This document shows positions 44,117-53,099 of a DNA stretch of 64,000 bases, one piece after another. Within the stretch, counting starts at the first letter, position 1, and every line of letters begins with the position of its first letter. The notes under the pieces are model-generated. The model ran no database searches. It saw only the letters and a program-made list of their open reading frames with translations, and was not told the DNA's origin. The stretch spans positions 1 through 64,000 of the forward strand of contig NZ_FUWJ01000003.1 in NCBI RefSeq assembly GCF_900167455.1, given 5' to 3'. The DNA is from Enhydrobacter aerosaccus (lineage in GTDB: Bacteria; Pseudomonadota; Alphaproteobacteria; Reyranellales; Reyranellaceae). A program made the position numbers and the translations under genes.

Positions 44117-45253
44117 TCAGAGGCCGAGGCTGCGGGCGATCAGATTGCGCTGAATTTCCGACGTCCCTTCCCCGATCACGTAGACCAGCGCATCGCGATG
44201 GATCCGGCCGACCGGATAGTCGCGCATGATCCCGGCACCGCCATGGATGCGGATCGCCGCTTCCGAGACACGCACCGCGCATTCCGAGGCCACCAGCTTG
44301 ACCTTGGCGGCGGTCGCGGCATCGAGCGTGCCCTGGTCGACGCGCCAGGCACCGTAATAGACCAGCCAGCGGGCCGCTTCGATGTCGGCCGCCATGTCGG
44401 CCAGCTTGTGGGCGATCGCCTGATACTGGCCGATCGTCTTGCCGCGCACCTTGCGGACCCTGGCATATTCGAGAGCCGCCTCGAGTGCAGCCTGAGCCAT
44501 GCCGAGTGCGTTGGCGGCGACGCCGACGCGATTTTCCGACAGGCTGTCGAGGATGATCGGATAGGTTCCGGTGCGACCTCCCAGCAGGCAATCATCGGCG
44601 ACGAAGGCATCGCTGATGTGCACCAGGCCCGTGTCCGACGCCCGGATGCCCTCCTTCTTCAGGCTCGTGACGACAATGCCCGGATTGGGCAGCTCGACGA
44701 GGAACAGACTGATGGAGGAAGGCGCGAGTTGCGGATCGGTGCGGGCGGCCAGGGTGAGGAAGCCCGCGATCGGCGCGTTGGTGATATAGAGCTTCGAGCC
44801 ATTGAGCTTCCAGCCGCCGGAGACCTTCTCGGCCTTCGTGCGCAGCGCCCGAATGTCGGATCCGCCGTCCGGCTCCGACAAGGCGAAGCCGGCGATACGC
44901 TCGCCTGCCAGCGCCGGACGGAAAAACCGCTCCTTCTGCGCGTCGGTGCCGGCGCGCCAGATCGGCCAGATGCCGAGATGACTATGGGCCGACCACGACG
45001 AAGAAAAGGACTGGCAGACGCGCGACATCTCCTCGCGCACGATGCAGTCCGACACCTTGTCGAAACCCGAACCGCCGTCGGCCGCGGGATAGCGCACGCC
45101 GACCAGCCCGAGCTCACCGAAGCGGCGGAACAGCTGGCGCGGAAAGGTCTCGCTTTCCTCCGCCTCGCGCACCAGCGGCGCGAGTTCGCTGTCGGCAAAC
45201 CGGCGCACCGTGCGCCGCAGCTCTTCCTGCTCGGGGGTGAAGGTGAAATCCAT
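44117..45253 (-). CDS. acyl-CoA dehydrogenase
   Basis: Flavoenzyme of 378 residues. N-terminal [27 protein letters not shown] region [15 protein letters not shown] and the catalytic Glu in [15 protein letters not shown] (about E362) mark the family. The NTGIRASDT segment and [20 protein letters not shown] complete it. Chain length or branched substrate cannot be read. The start ATG 45253 is chosen; the frame begins earlier at a TTG (45259). Confidence 0.95.
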
Positions 45254-45366
45254 TGCCAATCACCGCTCGTTGCCCATGGAGCGCCAGAATGGCCAAAGGG
45301 CGGCGACAAATCGAGGACACAAAGAAGGGGCGCGTGGCGCCCCTTCTTCCGTTCATGCGATCGCAC

Positions 45367-46434
45367 CTACTCGGCGGCGATGGCGTTCTCGACGAACTTC
45401 TTGGCGTCGAAATCCTCGGCGACCTTCATGTCGTTGCCAATCAGCTTCTCGACGTCGATCTTGGCATATTCCAGCACGCCCATGTCGCCCAGCGCCTTCT
45501 GGACCTTGGGTCCGAACAGGCCGATTTCCTTGAGGATCGGGACGATGCGGGTGAACAGGCGGGTCCGGAAAGCCTGCATGGCGCCCGACTCGTAGGCGTA
45601 CTTCATCAGTTCGTCGACCGGCAGGCCGGACCTTTCCCAGACCTCGGCCTGATTGAAGCGATCGCGCATGAAGTAGAGCGCCTCGACCGTGAACTCCTCG
45701 CGCTCGCCGCGCTCGTGATCGGACAGCTGCGGATAGTATTCACGCAGCGCCATACGGCCGAACGTGACGTGTCTCGCTTCGTCCTGCATCACATAGGCGT
45801 TCACCGAAGCGGCGAGATTGTTCTTCGCGGTGTCGCGGATGCGCTGGAAGGCAGCGAGCGCCAACCCCTCGATCATCACCTGCATGCCGAGATAGGTCAT
45901 GTCCCAGCGCCGATCGGTCAGCGTCTGCTCGAGCAGCGTCTGCAGCGACTTGGTGATCGGATAGGCCGACTTGAACTTCTCGTGGATCAGCCGCTTGTAG
46001 GCCTCGACATGTCGGGCCTCGTCCATCACCTGGGTCGCGGCATAGAACTTGGCGTTCATGTCCGGCACGGTGGCCACGATCTTGGAGGTCGCGATGAGCG
46101 CGCCCTGCTCGCCGTGCATGAACTGGCAGATCGAATGGCATTGCAGGTTGAAACGCAGCCAGCTGCGTTCCTTCTCGGTCATCTTCTCCCAGACCGGGGA
46201 CCCGAAGATGGGGATGGACTCGTCGGCCATGCCCATCGGGTTGTCCTCGAACAGCTCCTGGCTCCAGTCGATGCGCGTGCTCGCATCCCACTGCTGCTGC
46301 TTGCCCTTTTCGTACAGGTTCAGGAGATCGGCCGAACCGTCATCATATTCCCAGTTGAACATGATCTCGCTGGCGCCGTCGAACTTCCACTCCGTGATGT
46401 CGACGGGGAGCTGATAGAGTTTTTTCGTCGTCAT
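45367..46434 (-). CDS. ferritin-like diiron oxygenase, paralogue 1
   Basis: Helical protein of 355 residues with two matched pairs of metal-type ligands: E109 (MHGEQG) with E139/H142 (DEARH), and E189 (MIEGLA) with E219/H222 (DEARH). Each pair is 30 residues apart, as in bacterial diiron carboxylate monooxygenases. It is about 71% identical, by hand count and without gaps, to the product of 48858-49958. The reductase at 46584 is divergent and probably supplies electrons. Reaction and substrate are unknown. Ribonucleotide reductase R2 or R2-like ligand oxidase are less likely since their usual residues are not seen. Confidence 0.85.
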   Translation of the reverse strand: MTTKKLYQLPVDITEWKFDGASEIMFNWEYDDGSADLLNLYEKGKQQQWDASTRIDWSQELFEDNPMGMADESIPIFGSPVWEKMTEKERSWLRFNLQCHSICQFMHGEQGALIATSKIVATVPDMNAKFYAATQVMDEARHVEAYKRLIHEKFKSAYPITKSLQTLLEQTLTDRRWDMTYLGMQVMIEGLALAAFQRIRDTAKNNLAASVNAYVMQDEARHVTFGRMALREYYPQLSDHERGEREEFTVEALYFMRDRFNQAEVWERSGLPVDELMKYAYESGAMQAFRTRLFTRIVPILKEIGLFGPKVQKALGDMGVLEYAKIDVEKLIGNDMKVAEDFDAKKFVENAIAAE

Positions 46435-46478
46435 GGGCTCTTGCCTCCTGAGCTTGAACCTTGTCCCATCCCGTTCCA

Positions 46479-46501
46479 GGAGTGTCTGAAAGTGACACTC
46501 C
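46479..46501. promoter_or_regulatory. perfect 8-base inverted repeat in divergent promoter region
   Basis: GGAGTGTC (46479-46486) and GACACTCC (46494-46501) are separated by 7 bases. It lies between diiron gene 1 (start 46434) and the reductase gene (start 46584), so it could control both. The shape fits a TetR- or FadR-like dimeric repressor. Another repeat, ACTCT-6-AGAGT, lies at 46529-46544. No regulator gene is adjacent. Confidence 0.6.
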
Positions 46502-46583
46502 GTTCATTTTTCTCGGCGAGGCTAGCACACTCTGCTAGGAGAGTCGTCCGGAAATAGACGTTGGGGCAAACGACGGATTTTCA

Positions 46584-47603
46584 ATGGCTTATCATCAATT
46601 GCGTATCGCCAAGATCGTTCAGGAGACGCCCGATGCGCGCTCCTTCGTCCTCGAAGTGCCGGTCGACCTGGCGGACAAGTTCACCTATCGCGCCGGGCAG
46701 TTCCTCACCTTCCGCGTGCCGCATGGAGAGGGACCCTTCAATCGCTGCTATTCGCTGTCGAGCGCACCGGAGAGCGACCGCCACCTCAAGGTGACGGTGA
46801 AGCGCGTCACGGGCGGCAAGGGCTCCAACTGGTTCAACGATGCGCTCGCGGAAGGCGGCGTGCTCGATGTCATGCCGCCGGCCGGACGCTTCGTGCTGAA
46901 CGAGGGCGAGCATCCGCTGCTGCTGTTCGGCGGCGGCAGCGGCATCACGCCGATGATGTCCCTGATCAAGAGCGCGCTGAAATCGGGCACGCGCCGCATC
47001 CGGCTGTTCTACGCCAACCGCGACAAGCCCTCGATCATCTTCGACGCCGAACTCCTTCAGCTCATGGCCGAGCATCCGAGCAGGCTCGAGGTGATCCATC
47101 ATCTCGATGCCGAGCAGGGCCTGACCAAACCCGAGGAAGTCGTGGCGACGTTGAAGGGCTTCGAGGGTGCGGAAGCCTATCTCTGCGGCCCGGGTCCGTT
47201 CATGGACATGGTCGAACGCACATTGCTGGATGCCGGCATGCCGCGCGAGCGCGTGCGGCTCGAGCGCTTCGAGGCGTCGGGCAACGACGCCGTGCCGATC
47301 GAGCAGGAAGAAGGGGACGTGATCCCGAGCGAGATCACGATCCACTTCGAGAACAAGACGCACAAGGTTCCCTACAAGAAGGGGCAGACGGTGCTCGAGG
47401 CGGCGCGGGCGGCCGGTCTGAACCCGCTCTCCTCCTGCGAGGAAGGGTTCTGCGCCTCGTGCGCCGCCAAGCGGGTCAAGGGCAAGATCGTTCTCGCCAA
47501 GAACGACATCTACACCGAGGATGACCTCGCCAATAACTGGATCCTGACCTGCCAGGCCCATTGCTTCGGACCCGAGGTCGAGATCACCTACGACGTGGTG
47601 TGA
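46584..47603 (+). CDS. PaaE/KshB-like NAD(P)H reductase with 2Fe-2S domain
   Basis: Oxygenase reductase of 339 residues. N-terminal flavin domain (RCYSLSS, about 54-60), NAD(P)-binding LLLFGGGSGITPMMSLIK (about 112-129) with the end YLCGPGPFMD, and a C-terminal plant-type 2Fe-2S ferredoxin with CEEGFCASC and a final Cys in TCQAHC. Domain order matches PaaE and ketosteroid hydroxylase reductases that feed diiron or Rieske oxygenases. It lies between the two diiron genes, the likely partners. ATG 46584 is the start. Confidence 0.93.
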   Translation: MAYHQLRIAKIVQETPDARSFVLEVPVDLADKFTYRAGQFLTFRVPHGEGPFNRCYSLSSAPESDRHLKVTVKRVTGGKGSNWFNDALAEGGVLDVMPPAGRFVLNEGEHPLLLFGGGSGITPMMSLIKSALKSGTRRIRLFYANRDKPSIIFDAELLQLMAEHPSRLEVIHHLDAEQGLTKPEEVVATLKGFEGAEAYLCGPGPFMDMVERTLLDAGMPRERVRLERFEASGNDAVPIEQEEGDVIPSEITIHFENKTHKVPYKKGQTVLEAARAAGLNPLSSCEEGFCASCAAKRVKGKIVLAKNDIYTEDDLANNWILTCQAHCFGPEVEITYDVV

Positions 47604-47617
47604 GCGAAGGAGGCGAG

Positions 47618-47926
47618 ATGAGCCTGTCCCTGATCCTGCGTCTCGCCGTTCTCGGCACCGTTGGAGGATTGGCGGCGGGCTGTGTCTCGCCCTGCACCGC
47701 GACTCCCGAGAAGCTTTCCGCCTTGCGACGCGGCATGAGCTACGCCGAGACGGCACAGGTCATGGGATGCGAAGGCTCCCAGGTATCACCGGCGTCGGTC
47801 GCATCGGGCGGCCTCGCCACCATGGCGTGGGGCGGGCCGGGCCGCCCGCTCTCCACGCATACGCTGATCGAATTCGAGAACGGCCACCTGCTGTCCTTCA
47901 CGACCGGCCAGCGGTACGGGCTCTAA
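47618..47926 (+). CDS. small lipoprotein
   Basis: Protein of 102 residues with signal peptide and lipobox (GGLAAGCVSPC, lipidated Cys about residue 24). The mature region, RRGMSYAETAQVMGCEGSQVS, is typical of the SmpA/BamE-like or TadE-associated small lipoproteins, which assist outer-membrane complexes. Start ATG 47618 with AAGGAGG upstream was chosen over 47561. It follows the reductase by 14 bases. Role unknown. Confidence 0.75.
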   Translation: MSLSLILRLAVLGTVGGLAAGCVSPCTATPEKLSALRRGMSYAETAQVMGCEGSQVSPASVASGGLATMAWGGPGRPLSTHTLIEFENGHLLSFTTGQRYGL

Positions 47927-47935
47927 GCACCCCCG

Positions 47936-48580
47936 ATGCGGCCAGCCCTCCAGGCAACGACCCTCACTCTGGTCGCCGGCATCGCCGACGCCGTAGGCTA
48001 TCTCACGATGGGCGGCATCTTCGCCGCCAACATGACCGGCAATACCGTCCTCGCCGGCATCGCGCTGGCCCAGGGCGACTATGGTCACGCCCTTTATCAG
48101 TTCGCCGCTTTGGCCGCCTTCGTCGTCGGCGCCGTCCTGTCCCATTTCCTGCTGCGACTCACGGCCAGGCCGACCGCTGGCTTGCTGGCGGAAGCCGTGC
48201 TGATCGCGGGCATCGGCTTCCTGCCGATCCAGCCGGAATTGCAGGCAATGATTGTGGCAGCGGCGATGGGACTGCAGGCATCCGCCATCACCCAGTTCGG
48301 CGGCGTCTCGATCAGCACCGTGGTGATCACCAGCACGCTGGCGCGGATCGCCGACTCCCTGCTCGACCGATTCCGGCCGGTCGACGCGAAATCAGAACGA
48401 AGCGCGGCCCTCAACCTGCACCTCCTGCCGCTGAGCTGGGCCGGCTACCTGGCGGGCGCTTTCGCCGGAACGCTTATGATCGCGATCCTGCCATGGCCGC
48501 TGCTCGCGGCTGCGGTCCTGCTGCTCCTGATGCTGGTCTTCTGTTCCGGCGATACGACCGAGCCCAAGTCTCAGTCGTAG
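47936..48580 (+). CDS. DUF1275 (YoaK-like) membrane protein
   Basis: Membrane protein of 214 residues with about six hydrophobic segments. Family landmarks are VAGIADAVGYLTMGGIFAANMTGNTVL and GLQASAITQFGGVSISTVVITSTL. Family members have no known substrate. It starts 9 bases after the lipoprotein stop and ends inside the convergent zinc-ribbon gene by 10 bases. Confidence 0.9.
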   Translation: MRPALQATTLTLVAGIADAVGYLTMGGIFAANMTGNTVLAGIALAQGDYGHALYQFAALAAFVVGAVLSHFLLRLTARPTAGLLAEAVLIAGIGFLPIQPELQAMIVAAAMGLQASAITQFGGVSISTVVITSTLARIADSLLDRFRPVDAKSERSAALNLHLLPLSWAGYLAGAFAGTLMIAILPWPLLAAAVLLLLMLVFCSGDTTEPKSQS

Positions 48581-48861
48581 AACTCGCGATCGCAGTGGGC
48601 GCAGGTCTTGGGAATGTAGAACAGCGCCAGCCAACGCCGGGAGAAGGCACGGGCATGGCAGTGCGGGCACTTGAGGCCAGTCGCATAGACGAACAGGCCG
48701 ATACCCACCGCAATCGCGGCGGCGAGCACGAAGCCCTTATGGGCACCTACGAACGAAATAAGCTGTACCGCCGCCACAAACAGCACGATCGCCGCCGCAT
48801 AGGCGATCACCATCTTCTTCCGGACCGTCATCTCTCCCACGAGATTCGTCATCACGCTCAT
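48571..48861 (-). CDS. membrane mini-protein with four-cysteine zinc ribbon
   Basis: Protein of 96 residues. Two membrane segments (MVIAYAAAIVLFVAAVQLISF and GFVLAAAIAVGIGLFVYA) are followed by CPHCH and CAHCD, four cysteines in two CxxC pairs that could bind zinc. I do not recognise the family. Its ATG overlaps the TGA of diiron gene 2 (ATGA), so both are made together. Role in metal delivery or membrane attachment is speculation. Confidence 0.75.
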   Translation of the reverse strand: MSVMTNLVGEMTVRKKMVIAYAAAIVLFVAAVQLISFVGAHKGFVLAAAIAVGIGLFVYATGLKCPHCHARAFSRRWLALFYIPKTCAHCDREFYD

Positions 48862-49958
48862 CCGACGGCGATCGCCCGATCGACGAACATCTTCTTGTCG
48901 AAGTCGTCGGCAACCCGTCCGTCATTGGCGAGCTGCTCGACGACATCCACCTTGGCGTAGTCCATCACGCCCATTTCGGCAAAGGCCTTCTGGACCCTTG
49001 GCCCCCACAGGCCGATATCCTTCACGGTCGGCACGATGCGGCTGAACAGCCGACCGCGGAACGAGTTCATCTGCTTCGAATTGTAGTGGATCTCGTCGAG
49101 CATCTTGGCGGGCAGTCCGAGCCGCTCCCACACTTCCGACTGATTGAAGCGGTCGCGCATGAAGATCAGCGCCTCGACGACGAACTCCTCGCGCTCGTCA
49201 CGCTCGGCGTCGGACAGATGAGGATAGTAGTCGCGCAACGCCAACCGTCCGAACGAGACATGGCGCGCCTCGTCTTGCATCACGTAGGCGTTCACCGCAC
49301 CGGCCAGCGTGTTGCCGGCCTTGTCGCGGATCGACTGGAACGCCGCCAGTGCCAACCCTTCGATCAGCACCTGCATGCCGAGATAGGTCATGTCCCAGCG
49401 CCGGTCCGTCAATGTCTGCTCGAGCAGCGTCTTCAGCGCCTTGTTGATCGGATAGGCGAGCTGGAACTTGTCATGCAGCAGGCGCTTGTAGGCTTCGACA
49501 TGGCGCGCCTCGTCCATCACCTGCGTCGCCGCATAGAACTTCGCGTTCATGTCGGGAACGGTGGAGACGATCTTGGCTGTAGCGATCAGCGCACCCTGCT
49601 CGCCATGCATGAACTGGCTGATCGAATTGGCCTGGAGATGGCGACGCAGCCACGACTTCTCCGTCTCGGTCATCTTGTTCCAATGATCGGTGCCGTAGAT
49701 GGAGATGGCTTCGTCCTTGAGCTCCATCGGATTGTCGGGATTGAGCTCGAGCGACCAATCGAGCCGCTTGCTCGAATCCCATTGCTGCTTCTTGCCCTTG
49801 TCGTAGAGATCGAGCAGCGCCGGGGAGCCGTCGTCGTACTCCCAGTTGAACATCACTTCGGTGGCGCCATCGAAATGCCATTGCGTGATGTCGACAGGCA
49901 GCGCGTAGAGACGCTGCGTCCCTTTTTCCGTTTTGTGTTTGCCCATGTCGAAACTCAT
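48858..49958 (-). CDS. ferritin-like diiron oxygenase, paralogue 2
   Basis: Helical protein of 366 residues with the same ligand set as paralogue 1: E120 with E150/H153, and E200 with E230/H233, pairs 30 residues apart. It is offset by an 11-residue N-terminal extension. The conserved core, including FYAATQVMDEARHVEAY and NAYVMQDEARHV, is nearly identical in both. It is followed by a coupled zinc-ribbon membrane protein. The reductase 46584 is the nearest electron source. Substrate unknown. Confidence 0.85.
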   Translation of the reverse strand: MSFDMGKHKTEKGTQRLYALPVDITQWHFDGATEVMFNWEYDDGSPALLDLYDKGKKQQWDSSKRLDWSLELNPDNPMELKDEAISIYGTDHWNKMTETEKSWLRRHLQANSISQFMHGEQGALIATAKIVSTVPDMNAKFYAATQVMDEARHVEAYKRLLHDKFQLAYPINKALKTLLEQTLTDRRWDMTYLGMQVLIEGLALAAFQSIRDKAGNTLAGAVNAYVMQDEARHVSFGRLALRDYYPHLSDAERDEREEFVVEALIFMRDRFNQSEVWERLGLPAKMLDEIHYNSKQMNSFRGRLFSRIVPTVKDIGLWGPRVQKAFAEMGVMDYAKVDVVEQLANDGRVADDFDKKMFVDRAIAVG

Positions 49959-49980: not shown

Positions 49981-50021
49981 TCTTGCCAAAAGGATGACGC
50001 CCCCGTCGCGATGTGGCAAGA
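49981..50021. promoter_or_regulatory. wide inverted repeat between diiron gene 2 and the OYE gene
   Basis: TCTTGCCA (49981-49988) and TGGCAAGA (50014-50021) are perfect 8-base arms separated by 25 bases, in the divergent gap of 71 bases. The right arm ends 8 bases before the ATG at 50030. It may be an operator or a stem in RNA. No match to the repeat at 46479. Confidence 0.4.
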
Positions 50022-50029
50022 GCGAGGCC

Positions 50030-51106
50030 ATGCTTACACTCCTTGATCCCATACAGATGGGCGATTTTCGCCTTCCCAACCGTGTCGTCATGGCGCCACT
50101 CACTCGCAGTCGCGCCACCGACAGTCGAATCCCGAACGAACTGATGGCGCGCTACTATCTTCAGCGTGCATCGGCTGGACTGATCATCAGCGAAGCGACA
50201 TCGGTGACACCGATGGGCATCGGCTATGCCGCGACGCCGGGCATCTGGTCGGCCGCACAAGTTGAAGGATGGAAACTGACGACCGATGCCGTGCATCGCG
50301 GCGGCGGTCGTATCGTGCTGCAGCTCTGGCACGTCGGTCGCATTTCCGATCCCATGTTTCTCGACGGTGCCTTGCCGGTCTCCGCGAGTGCGATCGCGCC
50401 CGAAGGCTTCGTCAGCCTGGTGCGACCCAAGAAGGCCTTCGTCACGCCGCGCGCGCTGGAACTCGACGAAATCGCCGGCGTCGTCGAGGCCTATCGGCAG
50501 GGCGCGGCCAACGCCAAGGCGGCCGGTTTCGACGGCGTCGAGATCCACGGCGCCAACGGCTATCTGCTCGACCAGTTCCTGCAGGACCGTTCCAACAAGC
50601 GCACCGATCGCTATGGCGGCTCGATCGAGAACCGCGCGCGGCTGATGCTTGAAGTCACCGACGCGGTGATCTCTGTCTGGGGCGCCGCCAAGGTCGGCAT
50701 GCATCTGGCGCCGCGCGGCGACAGCCATTCGATGGGCGACTCCGATGCCGCCAAGACCTTTGGCTATATCGCGAGCGAGCTTGGCCGGCGTCGCATCGCC
50801 TTCATCTGCGCGCGCGAGTACGAAGGTCCCGACAGCCTCGGGCCGACGCTCAGGAAAACCTTTGGCGGCGCCTGGATCGCCAACGAGAAATTCACCAAGG
50901 AGTCGGCTCAGGCGGCACTCGATGCCGGCCGTGCCGACGCCGTTGCGTTCGGCAAGGACTACATCGCGAATCCGGACCTGGTCGAGCGCTTCAAGGTCAA
51001 TGCGCCCTTGAACAAGTGGAACATGGAGACGTTCTACTCGCCGGGACCGGTCGGCTACACGGACTATCCCGCGCTCGCCCCGGACCAGGCCGAGGCTGCC
51101 GGCTGA
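50030..51106 (+). CDS. Old Yellow Enzyme-family NADH:flavin oxidoreductase
   Basis: FMN enzyme of 358 residues in a TIM barrel. Landmarks are RVVMAPLTRSRA, QLWHVGR, the H/N substrate pair in VEIHGANGYLLDQFLQ and RTDRYGGSIENR with the active Tyr region. Members reduce alkenes conjugated to carbonyl, nitro or nitrile groups (NemA-like). The start ATG 50030 is followed by a typical beginning MLTLLDPIQMG. Divergent from diiron gene 2. Confidence 0.94.
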   Translation: MLTLLDPIQMGDFRLPNRVVMAPLTRSRATDSRIPNELMARYYLQRASAGLIISEATSVTPMGIGYAATPGIWSAAQVEGWKLTTDAVHRGGGRIVLQLWHVGRISDPMFLDGALPVSASAIAPEGFVSLVRPKKAFVTPRALELDEIAGVVEAYRQGAANAKAAGFDGVEIHGANGYLLDQFLQDRSNKRTDRYGGSIENRARLMLEVTDAVISVWGAAKVGMHLAPRGDSHSMGDSDAAKTFGYIASELGRRRIAFICAREYEGPDSLGPTLRKTFGGAWIANEKFTKESAQAALDAGRADAVAFGKDYIANPDLVERFKVNAPLNKWNMETFYSPGPVGYTDYPALAPDQAEAAG

Positions 51107-51109
51107 CGC

Positions 51110-51826
51110 CTAGGGCTGCAGACGATAACCGCCGCGATCCGTGATCAGGATCGCGGCGCTGGTCGGATCCTTCTCGATCTTCTGCCGCAGTCGATAGATG
51201 TGCGTCTCGAGCGTGTGCGTCGTGACGCCGGCGTTGTACCCCCACACCTCGTTCAGCAGCACGTCGCGCGCGACCGGCCGATCGCCGGCCCGGAACAGGA
51301 ACTTGAGGATCGAGGCTTCCTTGTCGGTCAGCCGGATCTTCCGCTTCCCGCCCTTTTCCATGAGCAGCTTGCCGGCCGGATGGAACTCGTACGGTCCGAT
51401 CGTCATGACCGCGTCCTCGCTACGCTCGTGCTGACGCAGATGGGCGCGCAGCCGGGCGAGCAGCACATTGATGCGGAACGGCTTGGTGACATAGTCGTTC
51501 GCGCCGGATTCGAGACCGAGGATGGTATCGGCGTCGGAGTCGGCCGCCGTGAGCATGATGACCGGCGCCCTGACGCCCTGCCGACGCATCAGCTTGCAGA
51601 GCTCGCGCCCGTCCATGTCGGGCAAGCCGATATCGAGCAGCACCGCGTCGTAATGGGCGAGCTTGGCCTTCTCCAGGCCTTCGGCCGCGGTGCCCACCTG
51701 GATCGTGGTGAAGCCGTCATAGAGATCCAGTTGCTCGGCCAGCACCGTGCGCAGCGCCTGATCGTCATCGACCAGCAAGATCTTCTTGCCGCGACTGTTC
51801 GGAGGAAGAGAGCTGCTTGTTTCCAT
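51110..51826 (-). CDS. OmpR-class response regulator, no adjacent kinase
   Basis: Regulator of 238 residues. Receiver with D65 (AVLLDIGLP), T93 and K115 (VTKPF) from VLLVDDD-like start, and a C-terminal winged helix (LTDKEASILKFLFRAGDRPVARDVLLNEVWGY). Neighbours are an OYE gene and ribA, with no sensor kinase nearby, so it is an orphan regulator. It ends 3 bases before the OYE stop, on opposite strands. Confidence 0.93.
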   Translation of the reverse strand: METSSSLPPNSRGKKILLVDDDQALRTVLAEQLDLYDGFTTIQVGTAAEGLEKAKLAHYDAVLLDIGLPDMDGRELCKLMRRQGVRAPVIMLTAADSDADTILGLESGANDYVTKPFRINVLLARLRAHLRQHERSEDAVMTIGPYEFHPAGKLLMEKGGKRKIRLTDKEASILKFLFRAGDRPVARDVLLNEVWGYNAGVTTHTLETHIYRLRQKIEKDPTSAAILITDRGGYRLQP

Positions 51827-51932
51827 GGCCGGCAGTCTATCTGGGTCGCCCGCCCTGCAAAAGCGGCCGGCCTCGGCAAAAAGGCCGCGCTGCCGGTGCC
51901 CAGACCGCTATAGTACATCCTATATTAGCGTC

Positions 51933-53099
51933 ATGATCCCGGCCCAGATCCAATCCCGCACCGCCGCCTCTCTCGCTGCCGTCGAACGCGCCCTGGCGGA
52001 GCTTCGCCGCGGCGGAATCGTCGTGCTGCGTGACGAAAACGGCGCCGCTGGGCTGGTGGTGGCCGCCGAATGCTGCGGTCCAGTGGCTTTCCAGCGGCTG
52101 CAGGGCCTGGCCCAGAACGCGCCCGTCCTGGTCACGACCCGCCGCCGGGCCGAGGCCATCGGCATGGAGATTCCCCCTCATATCGCCGGGGGTATGGGCG
52201 ACACCAACAAGCCGATCACGCTCGACCTGCCGGCCGGCGTGCCGGTCGATATCATCCTGCGGCCCCATGAACAGGGCACCGACCAGGCGCGCCATGTCGC
52301 TTTGCGGCACCTGTCGCGTCCGGTCGCCAGCCACGCGCCGCGCATAGCCGAAACCGCCATTGAGCTGGCCAAGCTTGCCCGCCTGCTGCCCGCCGTGGTG
52401 CTGGGGCCGCTGACACGCGATCCCGGCAACAAGCGCCGGGACTGGGCTCGCGATCAGGATCTCGTCTATGTCGACGCGGCCGACGTACTCTCCTACGACG
52501 ACACCGCCGCACGCAACCTGCAGCAAGTGGCGCAGGCCAACGTGCCGCTCGAGGGTGCCGAGAACGCCCGCATCCTCGCCTGGCGCCCGAGTGACGGCGG
52601 CAAGGAACATCTCGCCATCGTCGTGGGCGAGATCGATCCCACCGAGCCCGTCCTCATCCGCCTCCATTCCGAGTGCTTCACCGGCGACCTGCTCGGCTCG
52701 CTGCGCTGCGACTGCGGCGTGCAGCTTCGCGGCGCCATCGCGCAGATCGCCAAGGAAGGCTCGGGCGTCCTGCTCTATCTCGCCCAGGAAGGGCGCGGCA
52801 TCGGCCTGGTCAACAAGCTGCGCGCCTATGAGCTGCAGGACGACGGCTTCGACACGATCGATGCCAACGAGCAGCTCGGTTTCGATGCCGACGAGCGCGT
52901 CTACGCCCCGGCCGCCACCATGCTGACGCGCATGGGCATCAAGCGCGTGCGGTTGATGACCAACAATCCCGAGAAGATCGCCCAGCTCTCCCGTTACGGC
53001 ATCGAGGTCGTGGAGCGGGTCGCCCACTCCTTCCCGGCCAACGGTCACAACGAGAACTATCTTCGCACCAAGGCACTGCGCGCGGGACATCTGCTCTAG
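51933..53099 (+). CDS. ribA: GTP cyclohydrolase II with degenerate RibB-like half
   Basis: Protein of 388 residues. The C-terminal half is GTP cyclohydrolase II with zinc cysteines C248, C259 and C261 (SECFTGDLLGSLRCDCG) and QEGRGIGLVNKLRAY. The N-terminal half resembles DHBP synthase (RALAELRRGGIVVL) but reads RDENGAAGLVVAAE where RibB has EDREnEGDL, so its catalytic acids are missing. It starts riboflavin synthesis by opening GTP. ATG 51933 is chosen from the family-like beginning. No FMN riboswitch was seen. Confidence 0.92.
   Translation: MIPAQIQSRTAASLAAVERALAELRRGGIVVLRDENGAAGLVVAAECCGPVAFQRLQGLAQNAPVLVTTRRRAEAIGMEIPPHIAGGMGDTNKPITLDLPAGVPVDIILRPHEQGTDQARHVALRHLSRPVASHAPRIAETAIELAKLARLLPAVVLGPLTRDPGNKRRDWARDQDLVYVDAADVLSYDDTAARNLQQVAQANVPLEGAENARILAWRPSDGGKEHLAIVVGEIDPTEPVLIRLHSECFTGDLLGSLRCDCGVQLRGAIAQIAKEGSGVLLYLAQEGRGIGLVNKLRAYELQDDGFDTIDANEQLGFDADERVYAPAATMLTRMGIKRVRLMTNNPEKIAQLSRYGIEVVERVAHSFPANGHNENYLRTKALRAGHLL

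Follow-up and report, generated by a model that had tools for sequence, protein, structure and literature searches.

A stretch of 64,000 nucleotides from Enhydrobacter aerosaccus (contig NZ_FUWJ01000003.1 of assembly GCF_900167455.1, positions 1 to 64,000; hereafter the window) carries two paralogous genes for ferritin-like diiron proteins, DiiA and DiiB, placed around a single gene for an oxygenase-type reductase, Red. DiiA and DiiB are likely alternative soluble diiron oxygenases (hydroxylases or desaturases), each probably a homodimer, with Red as the electron donor to both. This reading is grounded in domains, ligand set, predicted fold, gene pairing, the dispensability of DiiB and an upstream box common to the genes.

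Organization of the locus

DiiA (45367..46434, minus strand; 355 aa) is a six-ligand ferritin-like diiron protein of family PF11583 and belongs to a branch bearing the signature HGEQGA. A divergent promoter region of 149 bp (46435..46583), common to both genes, separates it from Red (46584..47603, plus strand; 339 aa), an NAD(P)H/FAD reductase with a C-terminal [2Fe-2S] ferredoxin. DiiB (48858..49958, minus strand; 366 aa), the paralogue of DiiA, is convergent with Red and keeps all six ligands. The three open reading frames lie where a first-pass annotation of the window, made from a list of such frames, had placed them. The 253 identical positions that it had counted by hand between the paralogues also hold, over 351 aligned positions (BLASTP, 72%, gapless) and not over the 355 it had assumed. 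DiiA, DiiB and Red are under purifying selection, with ratios of nonsynonymous to synonymous substitution (dN/dS) of 0.05-0.21 in 14 pairwise comparisons from 5 loci, computed with our own Nei-Gojobori script. More than chance is at work here, for the arrangement is conserved in a bacterial family and selection acts on both paralogues and on Red.

Pairing of Red with DiiA across genomes

The host genome measures 6.77 Mb, and most of its close relatives belong to Reyranella and allied alphaproteobacteria. Conservation was surveyed in 67 genomes of one family, each at least 80% complete; the family was taken to be Reyranellaceae from its loci, and other GTDB family codes were used without names. 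A match to DiiA or DiiB was found in 66 of the 67 genomes and a match to Red in 64, one in each. Sixty of the 64 Red-bearing genomes have Red and DiiA in a head-to-head arrangement, across a gap of 95-281 bp. As to the four exceptions, a DiiA fragment lies at a contig end beyond Red in G616 and G630 (coordinates of L076 and L078), a contig end cuts Red itself in G623, and Red and DiiA fall on separate contigs in G600, whose matching locus L068 has no Red near DiiA. The three genomes devoid of a Red match are G645, which has no diiron match either, G625 and G638; their assemblies show contamination of 8% or 7%, or a completeness of 81%. Within the family, the proposal that reductase and diiron protein form one system is therefore upheld by 60 head-to-head pairs among the 64 Red-bearing genomes of 67.

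Red itself matches the Pfam domains FAD_binding_6, NAD_binding_1 and, at its C-terminus, Fer2, all above cut-off. Its best NCBIfam match is the PaaE model TIGR02160, at 210.9 bits against a cut-off of 420.8, so that the early description of Red as PaaE-like stands and an identification as true PaaE does not. Red as PaaE is rejected by this score and also by occurrence, proteins with PF05138 above cut-off being present in 43 of the 67 genomes versus Red in 64. The one PF05138 protein above cut-off in the host genome (contig C17) has its own nearby BenC/MmoC-type reductase, with an N-terminal ferredoxin. This locus (L181; G000 C17:477415-479736) encodes a single PaaA-like diiron protein, which scores 99.4 bits for PF05138 and 92.5 bits for the PaaA model (cut-off 280); together with a short-chain dehydrogenase/reductase and the BenC/MmoC-type reductase, it would make up another, unassigned oxygenase system of the host, which is described as a soil-type bacterium.

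Farther from the family, the kind of redox partner appears to change. Among more distant relatives, a Red-like gene (30-31% identity) is found near L136 and L141, and a [2Fe-2S] ferredoxin gene adjoins the diiron gene in L095/L139. As judged from these neighbourhoods, pairing with an electron donor recurs and the type of donor changes.

The diiron site

The ligand set originally read off the sequence, E109, E139/H142, E189 and E219/H222, is confirmed: each of the six residues is invariant in all 167 distinct full-length homologues aligned. Alignment, model and fold search agree in placing these ligands, in the order E, ExxH, E, ExxH, on a four-helix bundle, as is expected of ferritin-like diiron oxygenases. 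The surroundings of E109, HGEQGA, are near-invariant, with H107 in 166 of 167 sequences and variants such as HSEQAA in L145 and HTEQGA in L146. The later ligands lie within the motifs DEARH (138-142) and VMQDEARH (215-222), and the second-sphere aspartates of both DExxH motifs, D138 and D218, are present in DiiA and DiiB.

AurF-type N-oxygenases possess a seventh ligand, a histidine within the motif HxxDExxH, according to PMC12101540, PMC9478400 and PMC13061610, the last of which treats this histidine as characteristic of the N-oxygenases among ferritin-like diiron oxygenases; a 2-His/4-carboxylate set is presented in PMC12101540 as the motif of most diiron hydroxylases. The position of the seventh histidine corresponds to V215 in DiiA, and every one of the 167 homologues has V, I or A there, none of them His. 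The branch falls outside the ligand types of N-oxygenases and halogenases because V215 is not a histidine and because DExxH and VxxDExxH stand in place of QExxH and HxxDExxH. Judged by its aligned residues, it is a branch within the AurF superfamily that nevertheless fails both ligand tests and has a 2-His/4-carboxylate set instead.

Family and fold

The first-pass annotation had recognised no known oxygenase family in either diiron protein, AurF included. This was mistaken, for DiiA and DiiB score 64.7 and 65.9 bits with PF11583 (AurF), against a gathering score of 29.6; of eight more distant relatives, five lie above the cut-off and three below it (L113, L143, L148). The possibility that profile search would assign both proteins to a characterised family was thus realised as regards the AurF superfamily and not as regards its N-oxygenases, whose defining ligand is absent. 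None of the curated NCBIfam models reaches cut-off for any of the 10 branch members tested, DiiA and DiiB included.

Other diiron families were rejected on score. DiiA and DiiB obtain 19.8 and 27.3 bits with the R2lox model NF006200 (cut-off 194), 26.6 and 27.7 bits with PF00268 of ribonucleotide reductase (RNR) R2 (cut-off 33.6), and 16.3 and 20.9 bits with PF02332 of the bacterial multicomponent monooxygenases, that is, the methane/phenol hydroxylases (cut-off 24.4). Both are below cut-off for the aldehyde decarbonylase family PF11266, and neither gives a PF05138 (PaaA/PaaC) match up to E 10 in a search that filters out most hits above about 0.1.

Sequence search of the PDB returned nothing significant, whether with DiiA alone or with a profile. 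A structure predicted from 40 sequences (pLDDT 76.8, pTM 0.78) was matched by Foldseek to CmlI first (E 3.9e-4), then to aldehyde-deformylating oxygenase and then to AurF. VIA-align placed AurF (2jcd) at the top, with Z 20.6 over 286 residues at 15% identity, followed by CmlI (5hyh) at Z 19.4 and by R2lox and RNR R2 at Z 19.3-19.4. As the scores of CmlI, R2lox and RNR R2 are so near that of AurF, Z does not tell AurF from R2-like folds, and the structure indicates the superfamily and not the subfamily. Relatives of the branch at E of 1e-10 or lower are present in 44 of 289 genomes sampled in the class and 10 of 299 sampled in the phylum, and the aligned relatives reach down to 24% identity.

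Probable alternative hydroxylases served by one reductase

The first-pass annotation had proposed either a hetero-oligomeric hydroxylase of both paralogues or two alternative hydroxylases sharing one reductase. Distribution across the family bears on these proposals. DiiA and Red are present and DiiB is absent in 8 of the 9 genomes outside the main genus; the ninth, G659, has both paralogues, and G661, likewise outside the main genus, has two DiiA and no DiiB. Inside the main genus, with its 58 genomes, a DiiB match is present in 56 and both paralogues in 53, matches being assigned by identity to DiiB with at least 79% taken as DiiB. The two genomes without a DiiB match are G645, with no diiron match, and G637, in which a DiiB fragment lies at a contig end (L059). 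Six main-genus genomes (G612, G621, G632, G636, G637, G639) combine two DiiA matches with one Red; G280 was not counted among them, as its two matches appear to be parts of a single gene divided over two contigs.

Since DiiB is dispensable, as the eight genomes with only DiiA and Red show, an obligate DiiA/DiiB hetero-oligomer is unlikely, and the proposal is not supported in that form. More than one hydroxylase per reductase is supported by Red being single-copy in 64 of 64 genomes, and alternative hydroxylases served by one reductase are the better reading of this distribution.

A careful tree resolves DiiA and DiiB as sister clades, with support of 100/98 and 98/97, and the approximately unbiased (AU) test rejects a tree in which DiiB arises inside the DiiB-bearing genera (p-AU 0.005), the group tested having been named after a first quick tree with long branches was viewed. 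The sister clades and this rejection suggest either that the duplication dates to the base of the family or earlier and was followed by loss, or that DiiB was acquired from a relative. At 31 positions, 54 DiiA and 52 DiiB sequences have different residues, each conserved to 90% or more within its own set; these include C99/A, H100/N and C103/S, on the helix predicted to carry ligand E109.

A conserved upstream box

DiiA and most DiiB genes are further connected by a short inverted repeat. Each of the 58 intergenic regions extracted between DiiA and Red contains TGA-N8-TCA (51 of them differ from one another over the 38 nt compared), mostly as TGANCGGAGCGTCA and, in most regions, 74-81 nt from the Red start. 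In the window it reads TGAACGGAGTGTCA (46493..46506, minus strand) and is followed by an arm making an 8-bp inverted repeat, GGAGTGTC/GACACTCC. TGA-N8-TCA is also found 5' of most DiiB genes, the box of the window being CGACGGGGGCGTCA (49995..50008, minus strand), with one mismatch to the palindrome TGACG-N4-CGTCA. DiiA copies with no adjoining Red (L009, L033, L045, L056, L057) have TGA-N8-TCA upstream, with 0 to 3 mismatches to the consensus, and the box is often a clean palindrome in distant relatives.

After removal of identical upstream regions, TGA-N8-TCA precedes 62 of 64 DiiA genes, 39 of 52 DiiB genes, 8 of 15 relatives at 36-50% identity and 13 of 21 below 36%, compared with 109 of 1369 control regions; these controls are approximate, having been drawn from the same loci with a simple GC3-weighted picker of open reading frames. 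For the stricter TGAC-N6-GTCA the counts are 8 of 64, 19 of 52, 8 of 15 and 13 of 21, compared with 11 of 1369. The 11 control genes include five Red genes, which have the DiiA region in common, the TetR and ferredoxin genes of L139, and the divergent gene of L143.

The exact palindrome TGACG-N4-CGTCA is found at 26 sites in 1.86 Mb of homologue loci versus 2.06 expected from composition, an expectation that is if anything too high, as the loci overlap and the sites, not the bases, were de-duplicated. For 22 of the sites the distance to a diiron start is between -14 and 137 nt; two lie between a TetR gene and the ferredoxin gene preceding a diiron gene (L095, L096), and two lie elsewhere. Among 60 half-site permutations, TGACG-N4-CGTCA included, the median is 1 and two others reach 23 and 18. 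The 22 diiron-linked sites fall in at least 10 GTDB family codes and Tistrella, several of them being pairs from one genus and so not all independent; the loci were chosen for holding diiron genes, and the distribution of sites says nothing on other members of a regulon. In the window alone the palindrome has 5 matches at no more than one mismatch (3.31 expected) and the DiiA form has 2 (1.49 expected), neither significant. Since these counts are near expectation, the boxes of the window are supported by comparison only.

In one branch a [2Fe-2S] ferredoxin gene lies directly 5' of the diiron gene and is itself boxed, exactly in L095 and L096 and with one mismatch in L098 and L099 (Pfam Fer2 for L095; by eye for the other three). 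In L095 and L096 (L139 is the same place as L095), TetR and ferredoxin genes diverge from an exact palindrome, and the diiron gene that follows has a second. The TetR protein of these loci, identified by Pfam TetR_N for L096, is a candidate regulator; a plasmid search using it as query gave no regulator lead. In the nearest group outside the family, five of the 22 loci have a gene of a single TetR-type cluster next to the diiron gene (checked with Pfam TetR_N for L125).

The host genome contains a third homologue, 28-31% identical (G000 C24:26590-27132; L003, L143), with an exact palindrome upstream (L003:1236) in a region common to a divergent gene that is purC-like by eye. On the 3' side of the DiiA box, the complementary arm noted above for the window changes along with the box in many relatives, as in CGGAGCG/CGCTCCG of L006 and TGAACGGA/TCCGTTCA of L060; arms are also present in L081 and others. 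The register of the pair slips between genomes, and none was seen in the DiiB leaders inspected. The pair may form a hairpin in the leader or represent the second half of an operator.

Neighbouring genes and possible substrates

A small protein that is lipoprotein-like by eye (47618..47926, plus strand), present in only a few relatives, and a DUF1275 (PF06912) protein (47936..48580, plus strand), with members of its cluster in 37 of the 74 relative loci, lie 3' of Red and occupy the stretch between Red and DiiB. An acyl-CoA dehydrogenase gene behind DiiA on the same strand (44117..45259, minus strand) and an old yellow enzyme (OYE) reductase gene divergent from DiiB (49994..51106, plus strand) are both probably outside the system: the former has no match in the 74 relative loci L006-L079, and the latter lies beside DiiB in only one other locus, L078. 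A RibA gene (51786-53099), in which GTP cyclohydrolase II is over cut-off and the DHBP synthase domain match is below it, and a response-regulator gene adjoin DiiB in many Reyranella loci. Rfam gave no match at gathering threshold between 44000 and 51500.

An acyl thioester or lipid-like substrate is the leading guess, and a weak one. It draws on an acyl-CoA ligase gene after Red in L132, enoyl-CoA hydratase genes beside L124 and L125, and weaker acyl-CoA dehydrogenase relatives (26-36%) near some homologues outside the family. It also draws on L145 (a plasmid of Streptomyces sp. NBC_00536), in which a 43% identical homologue lies in an apparent natural-product cluster with genes for acyl carrier proteins (ACPs), AMP ligases, an acyl-CoA dehydrogenase, DAHP synthase and anthranilate synthase.

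Proposed mechanism and rival explanations

In the mechanism that we propose, NAD(P)H would reduce the FAD of Red, and electrons would travel via the [2Fe-2S] ferredoxin at its C-terminus to the diiron site, presumably of both DiiA and DiiB. The diferrous site would then activate O2 and oxidise a C-H bond, rather than a nitrogen, of a substrate held beside it. This path and this chemistry are suggested by the domain make-up of the proteins and by the known chemistry of such sites. A single control region would drive the head-to-head genes DiiA and Red, and an operator in the form of the palindrome TGACG-N4-CGTCA or its degenerate versions would join DiiA, most DiiB, the extra DiiA copies and many distant relatives under one regulator that reads the box.

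Several observations weigh against parts of this scheme. G625 (8% contaminated) and G638 (81% complete), both of the main genus, have a DiiB match and neither DiiA nor Red. The expectation that the reductase would accompany most homologues holds for nearly all loci inside the family and fails for most outside: among 22 proteobacterial loci with 56-69% identity, just one (L132) has Red adjoining the diiron gene. Paired copies from one genome and orthologues within one genus are included in the 22, and their flanks span about 1 to 10 kb. The Red of L132 is 54% identical, and its acyl-CoA ligase gene comes next. A search for Red in six outside genomes (G197, G082, G093, G067, G187, G044) found a close match only in G044 (55%); three others match at 32-38%, and the last two give no match at E 1e-30. 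So few matches imply that other donors serve there, or that the link with Red is not general. The box is missing from 13 of 52 DiiB leaders, and in the nearest outside group (50-72% identity) TGA-N8-TCA is found in 1 of 10 upstream regions and TGAC-N6-GTCA in 0 of 10, which speaks against a universal role. As for an acyl context, the window's acyl-CoA dehydrogenase and OYE are rejected as functional partners, not being kept in corresponding loci, and the acyl-related neighbours elsewhere are common genes that differ between loci and lineages. Heterodimers are possible beside homodimers, as DiiB keeps all ligands and 72% identity to DiiA.

Three other explanations have been weighed. DiiA and DiiB could form one Red-fed enzyme of alpha/beta type, as in PaaA/PaaC or MmoX/MmoY, which would suit the presence of both paralogues in 53 of 58 main-genus genomes, the position of DiiB within 3.8 kb of Red in 48 of the 49 genomes that have them on the same contig, and the box common to 39 of 52 DiiB leaders. 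In hetero-oligomers one subunit commonly loses its site, whereas every ligand is kept in both paralogues here; DiiB lies 489 kb from Red in G066, and the genomes with DiiA and Red alone, with G661 and its two DiiA among the eight, also tell against such an enzyme, which we regard as quite unlikely. A ferritin-like oxidase or redox sensor resembling R2lox, reacting with O2 without an organic substrate, or an enzyme of the aldehyde-deformylating type, seems improbable to a lesser degree. Z scores to R2lox and RNR R2 are within about 1.3 of that to AurF, and aldehyde-deformylating oxygenases are among the best Foldseek matches; however, the R2lox model is missed by a wide interval in bits (19.8 and 27.3, cut-off 194), PF00268 and PF11266 stay below cut-off for both proteins, and a dedicated reductase would argue for repeated reductive turnover.

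The proteins might instead be N-oxygenases like AurF, CmlI and DnfA, oxidising an amine or hydroxylamine and paired with a reductase as DnfA is with DnfB. Membership of PF11583 and the standing of AurF and CmlI among the best structural matches speak for this, as does the precedent of DnfB, an FNR-like and [2Fe-2S] protein encoded with the AurF homologue DnfA (PMC9478400). The seventh histidine of AurF, CmlI and DnfA is nevertheless V215 here, with His in none of 167 relatives, and this explanation is also quite unlikely. Alternative oxygenases served by Red thus remain the reading that we prefer.

Relation to known systems

DiiA and DiiB resemble AurF and CmlI in PF11583 score, predicted fold, six ligands and both second-sphere aspartates, and differ from them in the low structural identity (15%), the missing seventh histidine, the HGEQGA surroundings of E109 and, within the family, the adjoining dedicated reductase gene. 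The DnfA-DnfB pair of the Dirammox system (PMC9478400) likewise sets an AurF-type diiron protein alongside a gene for an FNR-like/[2Fe-2S] reductase, but the 3-His/4-carboxylate site that the same text gives for DnfA is not present in DiiA or DiiB, and no glutamine amidotransferase (DnfC) is found among the window neighbours scanned with Pfam. The kinds of component are in this respect already known, and the pairing of an AurF-type protein with a reductase has its precedent in DnfA-DnfB. CylC-type dimetal halogenases, to whose family NocO belongs, have an AurF-like fold, and NocO acts on an ACP-bound acyl chain, according to PMC12101540; the signature given there, QExxH plus HxxDExxH, contrasts with DExxH plus VxxDExxH in DiiA and DiiB. 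Red resembles the PaaE of phenylacetyl-CoA epoxidase (PaaABCDE), which also combines a reductase with a diiron partner, but it is far under the PaaE cut-off, and DiiA and DiiB show no PF05138 match.

Implications

In the papers found, enzymes of the AurF superfamily comprise N-oxygenases, a hydroxylamine oxidase, a hydrazone oxidase and halogenases, and the branch described here is without the N-oxygenase ligand. Among the papers listed in full-text searches of the open-licence literature, none could be tied to the HGEQGA branch, and spellings of its motif gave no paper, which is weak evidence of absence; as far as these searches reach, the six-ligand branch and its operator appear undescribed. 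The branch is spread through Alphaproteobacteria and is also present in Actinomycetota and Burkholderia, with a PaaE-like reductase as the probable donor in Reyranellaceae and a [2Fe-2S] ferredoxin in that part elsewhere. We tentatively suggest that it may be a separate class of six-ligand C-H oxygenase or desaturase for lipid-like or acyl substrates, with its own TGACG-N4-CGTCA regulon joining the diiron gene to the donor of each lineage. The DiiA-Red pair offers a compact two-component system for reconstitution, and the conserved operator provides a handle that requires no guess at the substrate: the box could be used to capture the regulator, whose inducer would point to the pathway.

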